Assembly (NCBI RefSeq): GCF_000340565.2
Contig: NZ_CP007203.1
Location: forward strand, 4,866,613-4,930,612
DNA length: 64,000 nt
From: Nodularia spumigena CCY9414
Lineage (GTDB): Bacteria > Cyanobacteriota > Cyanobacteriia > Cyanobacteriales > Nostocaceae
Direction: 5' to 3'
In this document: one piece after another, positions 32,469-40,773 of the stretch
Numbering within the stretch: position 1 is the stretch's first letter
How the letters are laid out: every line of letters starts with the position of its first letter
Notes under the pieces: generated by a model
What the model was told of the DNA's origin: nothing
The model's input: only the letters and a program-made list of their open reading frames with translations
Database searches by the model: none
Position numbers and translations under genes: made by a program

Positions 32469-34445
32469 TTAATTTGTCATGTTTCTGGCTTGCCATTGTT
32501 GGATGGCTTCTTGAGCGTCTTCGTAAACATCTGTCACCTGTGGGACTAAAGTAGCCGTTTCAATTGCTGCGGCGATATTACCTTGGTCAGCTCGACTTTT
32601 AGCCAGTTCCAAAATTTTTGCACTCCATTCATTAATAGATTTTTCGGCGCTATCAAATCCTGGTTGACCGGGTGGTACTCTTCTAGCGACTTCAATGGCA
32701 CGATTATATGTTGATGCTTGTCCGGGTCTAATTAAGGACTGAGCTGCATCTAAAACAGTTTGATTACCCACATATTGTTGAGCTTCTAACTGCCATTGGC
32801 TAATTGCTGCTTGTGCTTGAGGATAAAGGGCTTGATTTGGGGAAACTAATTGAGCCGCAGCAATGGCATTTGTATATTGTTTTTGCTTGGCACGACCTTC
32901 TGCTAAATCTAGAATCATGCGACTCCAAATTTTAATATTATCCTGAGCTTGTTCGTAGAGTGGTTCACCTGGTTGAATTTTACTAGCAGTGGCGATCGCC
33001 TGACTCAGATCACTAGCTTGAGTTTCCCTCAGAGACATTTTCGCTAAGTCTAAGACTGCTTGACTCCGCTTTTGAGACTGAGAATTAGCGGCGATTTGGG
33101 CGCTAGATTGGTTATTCGTGGGAGGAGTTATTGGTGATGTATTTGATTCCGAGTCAGCATTAGCGTCAACATTTGGCTCAGGGGTAGCAGTAATGGGTGC
33201 TATGGGTGATATTTCTTTAATTTGCAACAATCTCGCCTGATTGCGGAGAATAACTACAGAAATTAAAGCTACTACCAACATAGTGCCGCCACCCCAAACT
33301 AAAAACTGTTTCCATAATGGGGCATCTGCCTTATTCTCAGGTAAGGGAGAAACATAAGGTTGAGGCGCATTGGGGATGAACCTTCCCCCTGTAGCCATGT
33401 GCCTATTGAGCGTGTTTTGTTGGTTGAGGTACTCTTGTTGAGCCAAGCTAGAAAGTTTTTGTTCTTCCAACTGGCTAATGGCTGGGATGAAGTTGGAAAA
33501 ATTTACCGATTGGGATTTAGCACCTAGAGTAGTTTCCACACCTTGGGCTGACTCCCAGATATTGGCGTTTTGCGTCTTGGCTAAATTTTTAGGGATTGTT
33601 GCGCCCAGAGAAGACGCTGTAAGTGCAACAGCAAAGCTTTCCTCTGGAAAAATAACTGCTTCGGCTCCACTGGGTTGTATGGTGCTGGAAAGTACTAGGT
33701 TGTGGTTTTCCTCCTCACACTCCGGTAATATTGGTGGTTGGTGAGATGGAAAGATCGTTGCAGGGTTTTGTGTAGGTCGCCAGTAGTGTTGACATAATTC
33801 TGGGGTAAGAACACTTAAATAGCTTTCTAGATCAGTCAAGCTACTGGCATTACCAGAACGCAAAGCCTCTAATAGTGCAGCTGTGAAGAATCCGTGACCT
33901 AGTTCGCTACTTTCATGAGAGAATTGATCCGATTGGCAAGAAAGAATTGTGGCAATTTGTAGTTCTTTAGCAAGTTCTATGGTTTCTAGCCCCACGGGAC
34001 TATTTGCTTGAGTGCCAAAAGCACGGTTGATATCAAGCAGCATCAGTGTATTAATTCCAGTCAGTTGCAGACTTTGCATGAGCGATCGCACTTCTATGCC
34101 AGTTTCTTCTACCAATTCTGGATTTCCTTCCACTGGCATTAAGTAATCTTGGCCTTTGTAACTGACTCCATAACCGCTAAAAAATAACCAGAGATGGTCT
34201 TGTGGTTGCCAACAAGCTGCCGTCAAATCCTCCAGTAACACCAGAATATTTTGCTTAGTGGGATAGGTGGATCTATCCCCAATGGGTGGGGAAGCAGCTG
34301 TCATCAACAGACACCGTTGCTGTGCCAAGCCTCCTTCTTGAACCAAAAAATTATTTAGTACCTCGGCATCTGCTTGAGCGCAACGTAAGGGTTGAAATAA
34401 CTGATATTGATTGATGCCGATTGTGATCGCCCAGTAATTTGCCAT
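32469..34445 (-). CDS. Orthocaspase-like protein with substituted catalytic dyad, membrane-anchored, with C-terminal repeats
   Basis: Residues 1-230 form a caspase-like p20 domain, starting YWAITIGINQYQ. At the place of the catalytic histidine (normally SGHG) the sequence is FFSGYG, with Tyr at about residue 92. At the place of the catalytic cysteine (normally DxC) it is LLDINRA, with Asn at about 140. Both catalytic residues are therefore substituted. A single transmembrane segment lies near residues 385-405, then a Ser/Asn/Pro-rich linker. Four helical repeats of about 50 residues follow to the end (450-655), each with AI..A..V.PG and an I..W pair. Catalytic activity is unlikely; a scaffolding or signalling role is inferred. 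Confidence 0.88.
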   Translation of the reverse strand: MANYWAITIGINQYQLFQPLRCAQADAEVLNNFLVQEGGLAQQRCLLMTAASPPIGDRSTYPTKQNILVLLEDLTAACWQPQDHLWLFFSGYGVSYKGQDYLMPVEGNPELVEETGIEVRSLMQSLQLTGINTLMLLDINRAFGTQANSPVGLETIELAKELQIATILSCQSDQFSHESSELGHGFFTAALLEALRSGNASSLTDLESYLSVLTPELCQHYWRPTQNPATIFPSHQPPILPECEEENHNLVLSSTIQPSGAEAVIFPEESFAVALTASSLGATIPKNLAKTQNANIWESAQGVETTLGAKSQSVNFSNFIPAISQLEEQKLSSLAQQEYLNQQNTLNRHMATGGRFIPNAPQPYVSPLPENKADAPLWKQFLVWGGGTMLVVALISVVILRNQARLLQIKEISPIAPITATPEPNVDANADSESNTSPITPPTNNQSSAQIAANSQSQKRSQAVLDLAKMSLRETQASDLSQAIATASKIQPGEPLYEQAQDNIKIWSRMILDLAEGRAKQKQYTNAIAAAQLVSPNQALYPQAQAAISQWQLEAQQYVGNQTVLDAAQSLIRPGQASTYNRAIEVARRVPPGQPGFDSAEKSINEWSAKILELAKSRADQGNIAAAIETATLVPQVTDVYEDAQEAIQQWQARNMTN

Positions 34446-35444: not shown

Positions 35445-35739
35445 TTCCCTAGTCAGGAAAAGCCAGTTTTCAGATTTATCAAGACTGTATGAGAGCTTTT
35501 TCTGTGGTTTTCTGATTGCATTATCAATCATCGATAGTCCGCAAAAGCTCATCGGGTTGATAGAAAATGGGTAATGAGTAATTGGGGAAACCCGTTACCC
35601 ATTACTCACCAGACACCTCGCGCCGTGGAAGCCCCTACATTCATGTATGGGGGTAAGGCGTAGGCGATTTTAATCGCTGTCAAAAAATCTCCTTCACCCG
35701 TGATCAAATAGAGAGAGCATAAATAAACGGAGTAATCTG
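35445..35739. other. Intergenic region upstream of the IscB element
   Basis: No gene. It contains a hairpin-forming segment at about 35620-35665 (GTGGAAGCCCCTACATTCAT and a partner TGTATGGGG) that resembles the 3'-end hairpins of IS200/IS605 or TnpB-type elements, so an older element end may lie here. It does not encode the missing N-terminal part of the molybdopterin oxidoreductase found downstream of iscB. Confidence 0.45.
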
Positions 35740-35923
35740 TAGTTTATGTGAACCAAACCACTCAAAACATGAGTAAACGTTATCTAGGTCATAACACCTT
35801 GGGATTCGCTAGTCCCCTGCCATGTTGCTACTTATTAAACAATCCGCAAGGATAGTGTATTTAGCATAACAAGCTCAGATAACAAGGTTGAAGCAAACAT
35901 TACCCTGAAAAGGTGAAATTTAA
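35740..35923 (+). ncRNA. Probable IscB guide RNA (omega RNA / HEARO RNA)
   Basis: IscB genes are preceded by a structured RNA of about 200 nt (known as HEARO or omega RNA), with the guide taken from the flanking DNA at its 5' end. The 180 bp before iscB are non-coding and hold possible stems. GGGA...TCCC is at 35801-35816, and GTTGCTA can pair with TAGCATAAC. The region ends GCAAACATTACCCTGAAAAG close to the start codon. The exact 5' boundary, and so the guide, is not resolved by eye; candidate boundaries follow GTGA (about 35756) or ATGA (about 35772). Confidence 0.6.
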
Positions 35924-37201
35924 ATGTCTAATTTTGTTCTAGTTCTTGATACCAACAAAAAACCACTTACTCCAATTCATCCAGGAGATGCACGTTTTTT
36001 ATTAAATCAACAAAAAGCTGCTGTATTTAGAAGATTTCCATTTACCATAATTTTGAAAGAACCTAAATCTGAAGTTCCAACTCAACCGATTGAATTAAAA
36101 ATAGATCCAGGGAGTAAAACTACAGGTTTTGCGTTAGTTCAAAATAATAAAGTCATCTGGGGTATGGAATTACAACACAGAGGTTTAGCTATTAAAGAAA
36201 GCCTAGAAACTCGAAAAGGAGTAAGGCGAGGAAGACGTTCTAGACATACTCGTTATCGTCAAGCTAGATTTCTTAACCGCACTAAACCTCAAGGTTGGTT
36301 AGCACCTTCTTTAAGCCATAGAGTTTTAACTATTAACACTTGGGTTAAAAGATTATGTAATTTTGCCCCAATAACTGACATAGTTGAAGAGCTTGCTAGG
36401 TTTGACCTACAGCAGCTAGAAAACCCGGAGATATCAGGCTTTGAGTATCAACAGGGAGAGTTACAAGGGTATGAAGTCCGTGAATATCTTTTGAATAAAT
36501 GGAATAGAAAATGTGCATACTGTACTGCGGAAAATGTCCCTTTACAAGTTGAGCATATTAAACCAAAAGCCAAAGGAGGAACTAATAGAATTTCTAATTT
36601 GTGTCTAGCTTGTGAGAAATGCAATATCAAAAAAGGTACTCAAGATATTGAGAAGTTTTTAGCAAAAAAGCCTGAGTTGTTGAAGCAAATTTTATCCCAA
36701 GCCAAGCGTCCACTAAAAGATGCGTCTGCTGTAAATTCAACGAGATGGGCTTTATTTAATAAGTTAAAAGAAACTGGATTACCTATAACAACAGGTTCAG
36801 GAGGTTTAACTAAGTTTAATAGAACTCGTTTAGGATTGCCTAAAACTCATTGGATTGATGCTGCTTGTGTAGGAAAAGTTGAAACTCTCAAAATACTGAC
36901 AACAAAAATTTTAACAGTAAAAAGCACGGGGCATAGTTGCAGAAGATTCTGTAGGATCAATAAATTTGGTTTTCCTTGCACTGAGCCTAAAAAAATATTC
37001 ACTCATGTTTCTACAGGAGATTTTGTTAAGGCTACTTTGCACAAAGATCGTAAAAACATAACTTCTGGAAAGTATGTAAGTCGTGTTAAAACTCCCACAA
37101 AAAACGGATGTGAGATTGTTATCAATGGTTTTAGAGTTGAATTTTCAACAATGAAAGATATTACTAAGGTTCATTGTAGTGACGGGTATAGCTACGTTTG
37201 A
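35924..37201 (+). CDS. iscB: RNA-guided endonuclease IscB
   Basis: The 425-residue protein starts with the PLMP region (VLDTNKKPLTPIHPGDARFL). RuvC-I is LKIDPGSKTTGFALV with catalytic Asp at 61, followed by an arginine-rich bridge helix (TRKGVRRGRRSRHTRYRQAR) and RuvC-II in IVEELARFD. The HNH domain has zinc pairs CAYC and CEKC and the catalytic histidine in VEHIKPKAKGG. RuvC-III is THWIDAACVG, and the C-terminal domain ends HCSDGYSYV, like other IscB proteins. All RuvC and HNH catalytic positions look intact, so it could be an active nuclease, related to the ancestor of Cas9. It would use an RNA encoded just upstream. The reading frame is unbroken, and AAAGGTG precedes the ATG. Confidence 0.92.
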   Translation: MSNFVLVLDTNKKPLTPIHPGDARFLLNQQKAAVFRRFPFTIILKEPKSEVPTQPIELKIDPGSKTTGFALVQNNKVIWGMELQHRGLAIKESLETRKGVRRGRRSRHTRYRQARFLNRTKPQGWLAPSLSHRVLTINTWVKRLCNFAPITDIVEELARFDLQQLENPEISGFEYQQGELQGYEVREYLLNKWNRKCAYCTAENVPLQVEHIKPKAKGGTNRISNLCLACEKCNIKKGTQDIEKFLAKKPELLKQILSQAKRPLKDASAVNSTRWALFNKLKETGLPITTGSGGLTKFNRTRLGLPKTHWIDAACVGKVETLKILTTKILTVKSTGHSCRRFCRINKFGFPCTEPKKIFTHVSTGDFVKATLHKDRKNITSGKYVSRVKTPTKNGCEIVINGFRVEFSTMKDITKVHCSDGYSYV

Positions 37202-37517
37202 CTACGCAAAACTACAATTTTATGAGATTAAATGCAAAGACTGCTATGGTGGGTATACTACTAATATTTCTATAGAAGACTTTGTACGAGAAGAAAATTT
37301 TTTTGCTATTAAACTATTTGGTGAACCGTTAACAACAGAACACGGTGGACCATTGCGCCTAGTTGTACCTCATCTCTACGCCTGGAAAAGTGCCAAATGG
37401 ATTAATGGTTTGGAGTTTCTCAATGAGGAAGAACTGGGTTTTTGGGAGCGTAATGGCTACCACCGCCGTGGTGAACCTTGGAACCAGGAGCGTTACAGCA
37501 GTGGTTTGGGGCTTTAG
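37202..37517 (+). pseudogene. C-terminal remnant of a sulfite-oxidase-like molybdopterin oxidoreductase
   Basis: The frame reads CYGGYTTNISIEDFVREENF, GEPLTTEHGGPLRLVVPHLY, WKSAKWINGLEFLNEEELGF and WERNGYHRRGEPWNQERYS. These match the last 90 or so residues of small sulfite-oxidase-like molybdopterin enzymes. The first half (about 100 residues) is missing; the homologous part begins within 35 bp after the iscB stop. A GTG at 37179 inside iscB could start a hybrid frame but would not restore the enzyme. Its stop overlaps the end of the convergent aldehyde dehydrogenase gene by 4 bp. Confidence 0.8.
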
Positions 37518-39055: not shown

Positions 39056-39602
39056 TAAGTAGGTAAACAAAAAAAATTAAAGGTGTGTAAAGATAAGTAA
39101 ATACGGAAAAACATATATTAGGGTGATGTAAATATGGGGTCAAGGTTAAGGATATTCCTGACAAAAAAACAAGATAGAGAGTTGTTTGACCTGAGAACAG
39201 CGAAAGTACCGCAGAAAGTAAAAGATAGAGCTGAAGTAATCAGATTAAATGCAGATGGTTGGTATGTGGAAAAAATAGCGGCTCACTTTGATTGGGGAGA
39301 GCAAACAGTAAGAGTCGTGTTGAATAAGTGGGAAAAAGAAGGAATAGAAGGACTCCATGAGTTACCAGGTCGAGGGAGAAAGCCAAAATTGGTGGAAGCT
39401 GACATTGAATATTTAGAAAAATGCTTGAAAGAAGAAGCACAAACTTATAACAGTAAGCAATTAGCAGAAAAACTGGATAAAGAGCGTGGGATAAAAGTAA
39501 GTACCAACACAATCAGACGGGGACTAAAAAAAAAAGGGGTGATTTGGAAGCGGATAAGAATAAGTCATCAAGCAAAACAAGATCCAGTGACTCGTGCAAA
39601 TA
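39056..39602 (+). mobile_element. IS630-type element, 5' part only (copy 1)
   Basis: It begins at a TA (39056-39057) followed by AGTAGGTAAACAAAAAAAAT, the same terminus as the right end of copy 2, and carries the first half of the transposase gene. It is cut at GCAAATA, where copy 2 begins. Its 3' half is not found on the other side of copy 2. Confidence 0.85.
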
Positions 39603-39607
39603 AGTAG
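39134..39607 (+). pseudogene. IS630-type transposase, N-terminal half (copy 1)
   Basis: The frame gives 157 residues beginning MGSRLRIFLTKKQDRELFDL with the helix-turn-helix region (GWYVEKIAAHFDWGEQTVRV) and a second DNA-binding helix pair. It reads through a run of ten A residues (39526-39535) into VIWKRIRISHQAKQDPVTRA, and ends at a TAG contributed by the terminus of copy 2. The catalytic DDE region is missing. The first 135 residues are identical to copy 2, so the duplication is recent. Confidence 0.9.
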
Positions 39608-40773
39608 GTTAACAGAAAAATTTAAAGGTATGTAAAGAAAAGTTAACCTAATTGGCTTTGTTAAATTTAGTACGTTCTGTCCGGTGTTTTCCTTTTTTAC
39701 CTCTGGTTTCAACACCATCCATAACTGCATACGCTAGTTCTAATTCATCCTCAAACATTTTTCCAGCAATTTCATCTCGTTTAAGATGTTGCCATTCTAA
39801 TTCAATTGGATTCATTTCCGAGCAATATTTAGGAAGGAAAAACATATATAAACCCATTTGTTCCCACTTTGTCCATAATGCCTAAACTTCTTTACAACAA
39901 TGTATTGGTCCATTATCTTGAACTATGACTCTCATTCGTTTACTTTCAGATGCTTCTTGCGCCTCTTGTTCCATCATTTTGATGTAAGAACTGCGCTTAA
40001 CTCCTCCAATTACTAGACCATAAATAAAGCTAATTAATGGCTGAAATAGCCCAATAATACTGATTCTGCGTCCACGTCTTTTTGTTTGTTCGAGCTTTTT
40101 TTGTTCTCCTTTTTGATAGTATGTATAACCTGAATCACTCCAAGCTGAAAATCCTGATTCATCCAAATATTTTAGGTCTATTTCTCCACTAGCCGCAGCC
40201 AGTTCTAACATATCCATATCTGCTTGTTTATTTGCACGAGTCACTGGATCTTGTTTTGCTTGATGACTTATTCTTATCCGCTTCCAAATCACCCCTTTTT
40301 TTTTAGTCCCCGTCTGATTGTGTTGGTACTTACTTTTATCCCACGCTCTTTATCCAGTTTTTCTGCTAATTGCTTACTGTTATAAGTTTGTGCTTCTTCT
40401 TTCAAGCATTTTTCTAAATATTCAATGTCAGCTTCCACCAATTTTGGCTTTCTCCCTCGACCTGGTAACTCATGGAGTCCTTCTATTCCTTCTTTTTCCC
40501 ACTTATTCAACACGACTCTTACTGTTTGCTCTCCCCAATCAAAGTGAGCCGCTATTTTTTCCACATACCAACCATCTGCATTTAATCTGATTACTTCAGC
40601 TCTATCTTTTACTTTCTGCGGTACTTTCGCTGTTCTCAGGTCAAACAACTCTCTATCTTGTTTTTTTGTCAGGAATATCCTTAACCTTGACCCCATATTT
40701 ACATCACCCTAATATATGTTTTTCCGTATTTACTTATCTTTACACTACCTTTAATTTTTTTTGTTTACCTACT
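39603..40773 (-). mobile_element. IS630-type element, complete length (copy 2)
   Basis: An element of about 1.17 kb between TA dinucleotides (39601-39602 and 40774-40775). Its ends AGTAGGTTAACAGAAAAATT and, on the other strand, AGTAGGTAAACAAAAAAAAT are imperfect terminal inverted repeats. TA-flanking fits IS630/Tc1-mariner behaviour. It lies inside copy 1 in opposite orientation. Confidence 0.85.
39648..40696 (-). pseudogene. IS630-type transposase, disrupted (copy 2)
   Basis: The first frame (40696-40289) encodes the DNA-binding region and ends after a run of nine A residues. The second (40292-39882) continues with KYLDESGFSAWSDSGYTY and VIVQDNGPIHCCKEV, giving the first two catalytic aspartates. 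It stops at a TAG (39882-39884), after which the same frame continues to 39648 with FFLPKYCSEMNPIELEWQHL, giving the catalytic glutamate. The A-run may be a programmed slippage site, because copy 1 has ten A and reads through. The in-frame TAG looks like a true nonsense mutation, so this copy is probably inactive. Confidence 0.88.

Follow-up and report, generated by a model that had tools for sequence, protein, structure and literature searches.

The bloom-forming cyanobacterium Nodularia spumigena CCY9414 carries an IscB element that, by comparison of its copies, has recently multiplied in this genome. The guide RNA of the element seems also to offer a docking site to the transposase of a different element. 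IscB itself is the RNA-guided relative of the Cas9 ancestor. One copy lies in the 64,000-nucleotide stretch of DNA analysed here (the window), and the IscB and guide RNA found there belong to a type already known. The novelty, so far as the literature searched shows, lies in a clade of IscBs that has IS607-type ends and whose guide adaptor is remodelled. The portions available to us of the literature on IscB with IS607, a serine recombinase or HEARO mention no IscB with IS607 ends; an earlier report is possible. The features of the window copy are as follows.

35606-35712, plus strand: left flank, the start of another insertion sequence; 89% identical to G003:C118:3609-3711.
35697-35712, plus strand: predicted guide of 16 nt, the DNA immediately 5' of the element.
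35713-37241, plus strand: complete IscB element, 1529 bp, starting GAGAGCATAAAT and ending GCAAAGAC; bounds taken from copies with unrelated flanks.
35713-35736, minus strand: end resembling the IS607 right end (RE), reading outward ATTACTCCGTTTATTTATGCTCTC; core GA at 35713-35714; 14 of 24 positions match the IS607 RE.
35713-35754, plus strand: compact 5' domain of the omega RNA, with the stem GCAUAAA/UUUAUGU and a GUAA-loop hairpin, overlapping the IS607-type end; from folding and covariation.
35713-35903, plus strand: omega RNA scaffold (HEARO), RF02033; start fixed by the genome copies.
35924-37201, plus strand: IscB, 425 aa, with PLMP, RuvC and HNH; from Pfam, NCBIfam and alignment.
37207-37241, plus strand: end resembling the IS607 left end (LE), reading outward ...ACTACAATTTTATGAGATTAAATGCAAAGAC; the right-end match to IS607.
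37239-37241, plus strand: GAC, the core GA plus C, present singly in most empty sites; predicted TAM.
37242-37517, plus strand: right flank, a remnant of a molybdopterin-binding oxidoreductase gene (Pfam PF00174).

A sequence-only reading had proposed an IscB with intact catalytic residues, an unbroken frame and no transposase, and all three points hold. The frame runs from ATG to TGA without a break. Its product matches the NCBIfam guided_IscB profile over its full length (NF040563, positions 1-314 of 314) with 467.3 bits against a cut-off of 175, and Pfam recognizes RRXRR (242.5 bits) and HNH (42.9 bits). In sequence alignment with two solved IscBs, Asp61 of RuvC-I matches a conserved counterpart, most clearly in 11hr; EELARF from residue 155 (RuvC-II), VEHIK from 209 (HNH) and HWIDA from 309 (RuvC-III) likewise have conserved counterparts. 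The zinc pairs, by the residue roles of IscB, are C197/C200 and C230/C233. On the profile match and this alignment the RuvC and HNH catalytic motifs are intact. No transposase is encoded within 35713-37241.

An omega RNA had been expected directly upstream, and Rfam finds one: HEARO (RF02033) matches 35679-35903 with E 2.7e-15. Its 83.3 bits pass the gathering score of 83, and no other Rfam family exceeds its cut-off in the window. The match includes flanking bases; because the copies share only 35713-37241, its start at 35679 lies in flanking DNA. Within the whole genome there are 23 HEARO matches, 4 of them above the cut-off. Among copies of this element family the window copy alone passes, 16 others stand just under the cut-off at 82.7 and three score lower. 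Scores at nine loci of the IscB clade range from 64.7 to 90.7 bits (4 of 9 above the cut-off). The idea that the guide is host DNA to the left of the RNA's 5' end is supported as a prediction. With the length of IscB guides taken as about 16 nt, the guide predicted for the window copy matches only its own site at 0 mismatches and nothing further in the genome at 1; at up to 3 mismatches there are 48 places in all, against 42 for the reversed control.

Three HEARO RNAs outside the family (L001-L003, at G000:C1:4760818, 4392319 and 308943) score 123-163 bits. One of them adjoins a partial IscB relative of 57% identity; the other two have none among the matches listed. The genome paper counts 70 copies of an RNA element that it assigns to a diversity-generating retroelement (PMC3610870).

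Alignment of copies, run as a boundary check, gives exact ends at 35713 and 37241: this segment is common, at 99.67-100% identity, to copies with different flanks. The start first claimed, 35740, is thereby corrected. In a census that compared 33 fetched regions with the window (L111, a repeat of L099, was left uncounted and L105, a 71% match, was excluded), the element occupies 23 loci of its own genome at 99.36-100% identity per piece, with 12 complete copies at 99.67-100%. The right end occurs in 23 copies, each at a locus of this element. A search of the genome with the IscB protein gives 39 matches; in the first 14 the frame of 425 codons is unbroken.

Several minor observations belong to this census. 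Runs of N lie inside or next to some copies, and at L083 (G000:C1:336382-339329) the element stands twice in tandem within an alpha/beta hydrolase gene, with an N run between. The element is on the minus strand in 18 of 24 pieces (p 0.02). At 9 of 12 genic sites the interrupted gene is co-directional with the omega RNA, which is not significant (p 0.15); host transcription could supply the guide at such sites. Some copies (L084, L085/L092 and L103), and the left flank of the window copy, lie inside other guided-nuclease transposons or transposase genes; the invaded sites are two frames read as tnpB, one serine-recombinase gene and one start of a tnpB element. The guides of these copies would then target those rival elements. 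Internally deleted copies were considered as derivatives mobilised in trans, and the idea was dropped: L086 and L087 have common flanks, so that a duplicated segment or an assembly effect is possible.

Joined flanks of 14, and then of 16, copies were compared with relatives. Nine of the 16 have contiguous empty sites in sister species, without target duplication. At seven of these nine (L082, L084, L086, L091, L093, L098 and L101) at least one relative reads LEFT-GAC-RIGHT, though at L091 this is 1 of 8 relatives, the others having AAC, CAC or TAC. The remaining two read GAG in 3 of 3 relatives (L099) and mostly GAT (L102). No empty site was obtained for seven copies (L081, L085, L087, L088, L090, L103 and the window), and the oxidoreductase site to which the right flank of the window copy belongs reads CAC, not GAC, in a relative. 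In filled sites the element terminates in GAC and also begins with GA. TG directly follows GAC at 13 of 18 distinct sites.

The element is mobile and not domesticated, because it has 23 near-identical loci and sister species have empty sites. Domestication had been left as an alternative by the sequence-only reading. An immobile IscB with a host function would agree with an element that carries no transposase; it is extremely improbable in view of the 23 loci, and of four same-genus genomes three have only IscB matches at E 4e-8 to 7e-6 and the fourth a 55% relative.

The element is also found in other genera. An IscB identical to 98% is present in Dolichospermum sp. UHCC 0259, and genomes of a genus that we call g28 hold four complete or near-complete copies at 97.8-98.7% DNA identity. 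One g28 copy (L269) has a flank in common with the UHCC 0259 locus (L194), and G031 has exact flanks in common with loci of Dolichospermum sp. ST_sed8. For these shared flanks we take g28 to be Dolichospermum. All this points to recent transfer of the element between genera.

The flanks of the window copy are a hybrid. Left and right are of different origin: the left flank is not oxidoreductase-gene DNA, and its match in G003 precedes a frame that is tnpB-like by reading alone. The oxidoreductase gene is whole (201 aa) in L157, and at the window copy 353 bp of that relative are missing, as are about 108 codons from the start of the gene. Recombination between two copies of the element, with loss of the intervening DNA, would explain this arrangement. 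As a result of the hybrid flanks, the predicted guide of the window copy does not match its present site. A comparable case is formed by L085 (G000:C1:755594-756868) and L092 (2038287-2039546), which are in opposite orientation. The left flank of L092 and the right flank of L085 together make one frame across GAC, tnpB by reading, which suggests an inversion through recombination between both copies.

One might then ask whether the copies spread chiefly by recombination, gene conversion or repeat assembly rather than by transposition. Flanks are shared or swapped at the window, L085/L092, L086/L087/L091 and L088/L097, and the N runs mentioned above would fit as well. Such a course is nevertheless very unlikely as the main one, given the nine copies whose flanks are contiguous in relatives, seven of them with GAC between in at least one relative, and given that the Dolichospermum copies have other flanks.

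The ends of the element set it apart from other IscBs. Most of the cyanobacterial IscBs that we read have a 5' GUCA stem with palindromic hairpins, and many also have a 3' palindrome. By reading and by pattern, the window element and its nearest relatives have no such palindrome at either end. Among 217 genomes of the family, the right-end pattern is present in 8, from three genera; the reversed pattern matched 4 times, so the bare pattern has chance matches. The motif occurs at 15 loci outside the own genome, of which 12 are this element or pieces of its kin. The three others are non-IscB loci that have in common 98 bp ending exactly at GAC and running into the start of an IS607-type TnpA. 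Of the complete IS607 elements the nearest, with a related end, is 2.2 kb long and has five copies in G155. Its TnpA matches the NCBIfam IS607 transposase with 167.6 bits (cut-off 110); its TnpB-like protein scores 89.9 bits, below the cut-off of 100. The right end of this element, when read against the left end of some IscB elements in the outward direction, is alike. Hence the IscB unit would be reversed between IS607-type ends.

Reference IS607 ends were taken from G155, G016 and G133. A TnpA search, not the right-end pattern, led to them, although the TnpA group was chosen for its likeness to the pattern loci. For the right end, the 9 clade members that have a right side (L060 was assigned to the clade partly on its right end) match these references at best with 20-26 of 35, and the non-clade IscBs, 51 hairpin-type and 23 others, with at most 19 of 35. 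A rank test of the clade against the 51 gives p = 5e-7, with rows that are not independent. L195 and L197 lack a clear IS607-like right end; their score of 20 is reached at other offsets, perhaps by chance. When aligned at the tip, the window type scores 22 of 35, a value reached at 1 of 200000 random places, L196 scores 26 (0 places) and L261 21 (8 places).

The left end gives a weaker picture. When the upstream 300 bases are scanned blindly, the groups overlap and are not separated, with scores out of 24 of 13-19 in 10 clade members, 12-17 in 53 hairpin-type IscBs and 12-15 in 28 others. Aligned at the tip, L201 reaches 19 (0 of 200000 random places), L054 and L241 16 (2) and L262 15 (55); weaker values are found for the window at 14 (316), L197 at 13 (1184) and L195 and L196 at 12 (3980). 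The IS607 likeness of the window's left end is by itself modest. In ten additional IscB regions the pattern yields no left end and the right ends score 16-20 of 35; hairpin ends are present in several of these regions. Taken as sequences, the ends of the element resemble those of IS607 in swapped order, the right one strongly and the left one clearly only in some relatives.

The tips provide another comparison. In all 7 elements whose two tips are legible, one and the same dinucleotide stands at either end: GA in the window, L194 and L196, and GG in L054, L201, L241 and L060. These seven are not independent, as L194 is close to the window element and L060 and L241 come from one genome (G077/G270). 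The tips rest on copies for the window family only; for distant relatives we infer them from motif alignment and spacing. The left tip of L060 is 10 bases farther from the motif than in other elements; this tip was placed by reading in L384, an additional region that is the L060 locus. An identical dinucleotide at both tips is the crossover signature of serine recombinases. IS607 elements obey the same rule; on the strand shown they read CC/CC in G155, G147 and G133 and TC/TC in G016. Two studies have IS607 strand exchange taking place over identical GG (PMC6188088, PMC4058570).

A tree of 85 IscBs places 9 IS607-ended rows inside a group of 12 (support 97/96) that contains none of the 52 hairpin-type rows; the ends of the remaining three (L198, L199 and L223) are not clearly typed. 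L052, a duplicate of L196, was dropped, rows shorter than 350 residues such as L262 were excluded, and end labels were given by pattern, that of L060 by hand. Two changes of end label are required by this tree, and the IS607-type ends may still have a single origin.

Could this be a HEARO element of the usual IS605 type that a Y1 TnpA moves in trans, with ends that resemble IS607 by coincidence? In the literature IscB is filed under IS200/IS605 (PMC9581776, PMC9755519). Insertion without duplication is compatible with Y1 as well, the left-end likeness is modest, and the genome contains 8 Y1-type matches, 4 of them near-identical. When the 8 Y1 loci were compared with the ends of the element, none was alike except where an IscB copy adjoins the Y1 locus. 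The four-copy IS605 element was rejected as the source of a cognate transposase. With hairpin-type palindromes at neither end, right-end scores that separate fully and tips that match, we consider a Y1-driven element unlikely.

We think it probable, on the sequence features described, that this is an OMEGA (IscB/omega RNA) element with IS607-type ends, that a TnpA of IS607 type supplied in trans mobilises it, that the core dinucleotide lies within the predicted TAM (GAC/GGC) and that the element homes. Several steps can be envisaged. An IS607-type serine recombinase (TnpA) would act in trans and excise the element as a circle, which would be inserted at a matching dinucleotide (in some relatives GG, here GA). 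After excision the site would again read LEFT-GA-C-RIGHT, exactly the guide followed by the predicted TAM (GAC). IscB, with an omega RNA whose first ~16 nt would equal the left flank, might then cut the emptied allele. The chromosome is present several times in each cell of such cyanobacteria, and repair from one that still holds the element would reinstate it.

What TnpA might serve? The nearest one in the own genome is present in 2 copies, 98% identical over 112 residues, both frameshifted, and the core of its element is CC. No match to this TnpA was found in the genomes of L194 and L201. Counting distinct genomes (G077 and G270 as one), TnpA relatives of at least 55% identity along the first half or the greater part of the protein are present in 3 of 9 genomes with an IS607-ended IscB and in 1 of 14 with a hairpin-type IscB. 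Co-occurrence across genomes is weak, and TnpA relatives are widespread, also in controls. Other IS607 groups of the own genome were rejected as a source, as their upstream ends read differently. In the mechanism proposed for IS607, the circle needs just a target with a matching dinucleotide (PMC4058570); a single TnpA might therefore move both GA and GG elements. As an observation apart, contigs of G025, G149 and G077 contain recurrent short fragments in which this IS607 tnpA is reduced to its first 21-30 codons; it looks as though small non-autonomous derivatives bearing this IS607 end were common.

The omega RNA itself differs at its 5' side. Instead of the GUCA-stem guide adaptor with palindromic hairpins, which is absent from the 5' side of the element, there is a short covarying stem with the GUAA loop. 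The window sequence folds into stem and hairpin at -10.2 kcal/mol (z -3.4), and eight sequences give z from -1.3 to -5.2. Across five sequences, pairing is kept in 89% of cells, the structure being taken from the window. In the same five, 5 of 13 pairs are changed on both sides, which is equalled by 18 of 500 shuffles, and the covariation score is matched in 1 of 500. The exchange of such a region is plausible, since in IsrB deletion of SL1 in the guide adaptor leaves nicking robust, and the region is tied to IS200/IS605 activity (PMC9581776).

We also lean, somewhat cautiously, towards the view that this IscB clade switched from a Y1 (IS605) transposase to a serine recombinase (IS607), that an IS607 end replaced the guide adaptor and that the core dinucleotide joined the adjacent motif. 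If so, one sequence would be the transposase docking site in DNA and the guide adaptor in RNA. This makes the 5' domain of the omega RNA look like a module that can be replaced and to which the transposase has given its shape, a point relevant to the origin of the guide-RNA architecture of Cas9. The clade offers a different, testable answer. The 23 loci of a recent family, many of them with different natural guides, and the empty sites in sister species make a ready test bed for IscB homing.

Several known systems are related. With IscB/HEARO (OMEGA) elements of the IS200/IS605 superfamily, the element shares the IscB family, the HEARO core, a 5' guide derived from the flank and the lack of an internal transposase. 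It differs in its IS607-like ends, the same dinucleotide at both tips, a predicted adjacent motif of GAC/GGC and one short hairpin domain in place of the GUCA stem and palindromic hairpins. With the IS607 family it shares similar end sequences (the right clearly, the left partly), a matching 2-bp core and the absence of target duplication. IS607 elements have TnpA and TnpB, whereas the IscB element has neither; in it IscB and the omega RNA are reversed, with the IscB start at the IS607 right end. Group B IStrons are also a passenger RNA machine with IS607-type ends and a target ending in GG (PMC4227781), but what they carry is a group I intron rather than a guided nuclease from the line of Cas9. 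In the IS607 TnpB of ISXfa1 the boundary of the guide RNA is fitted to the fixed nucleotide of serine-recombinase insertion (PMC10711439); the guide is at the 3' end there, while IscB has a 5' guide.

Two further loci of the window may be mentioned. A caspase-like protein at 32469-34445 scores 37.5 bits with NCBIfam, below the cut-off of 140. At 39134-40696 two near-identical starts of HTH transposases point in opposite directions, and a DDE_3 fragment follows one of them; these pieces are probably broken transposons.
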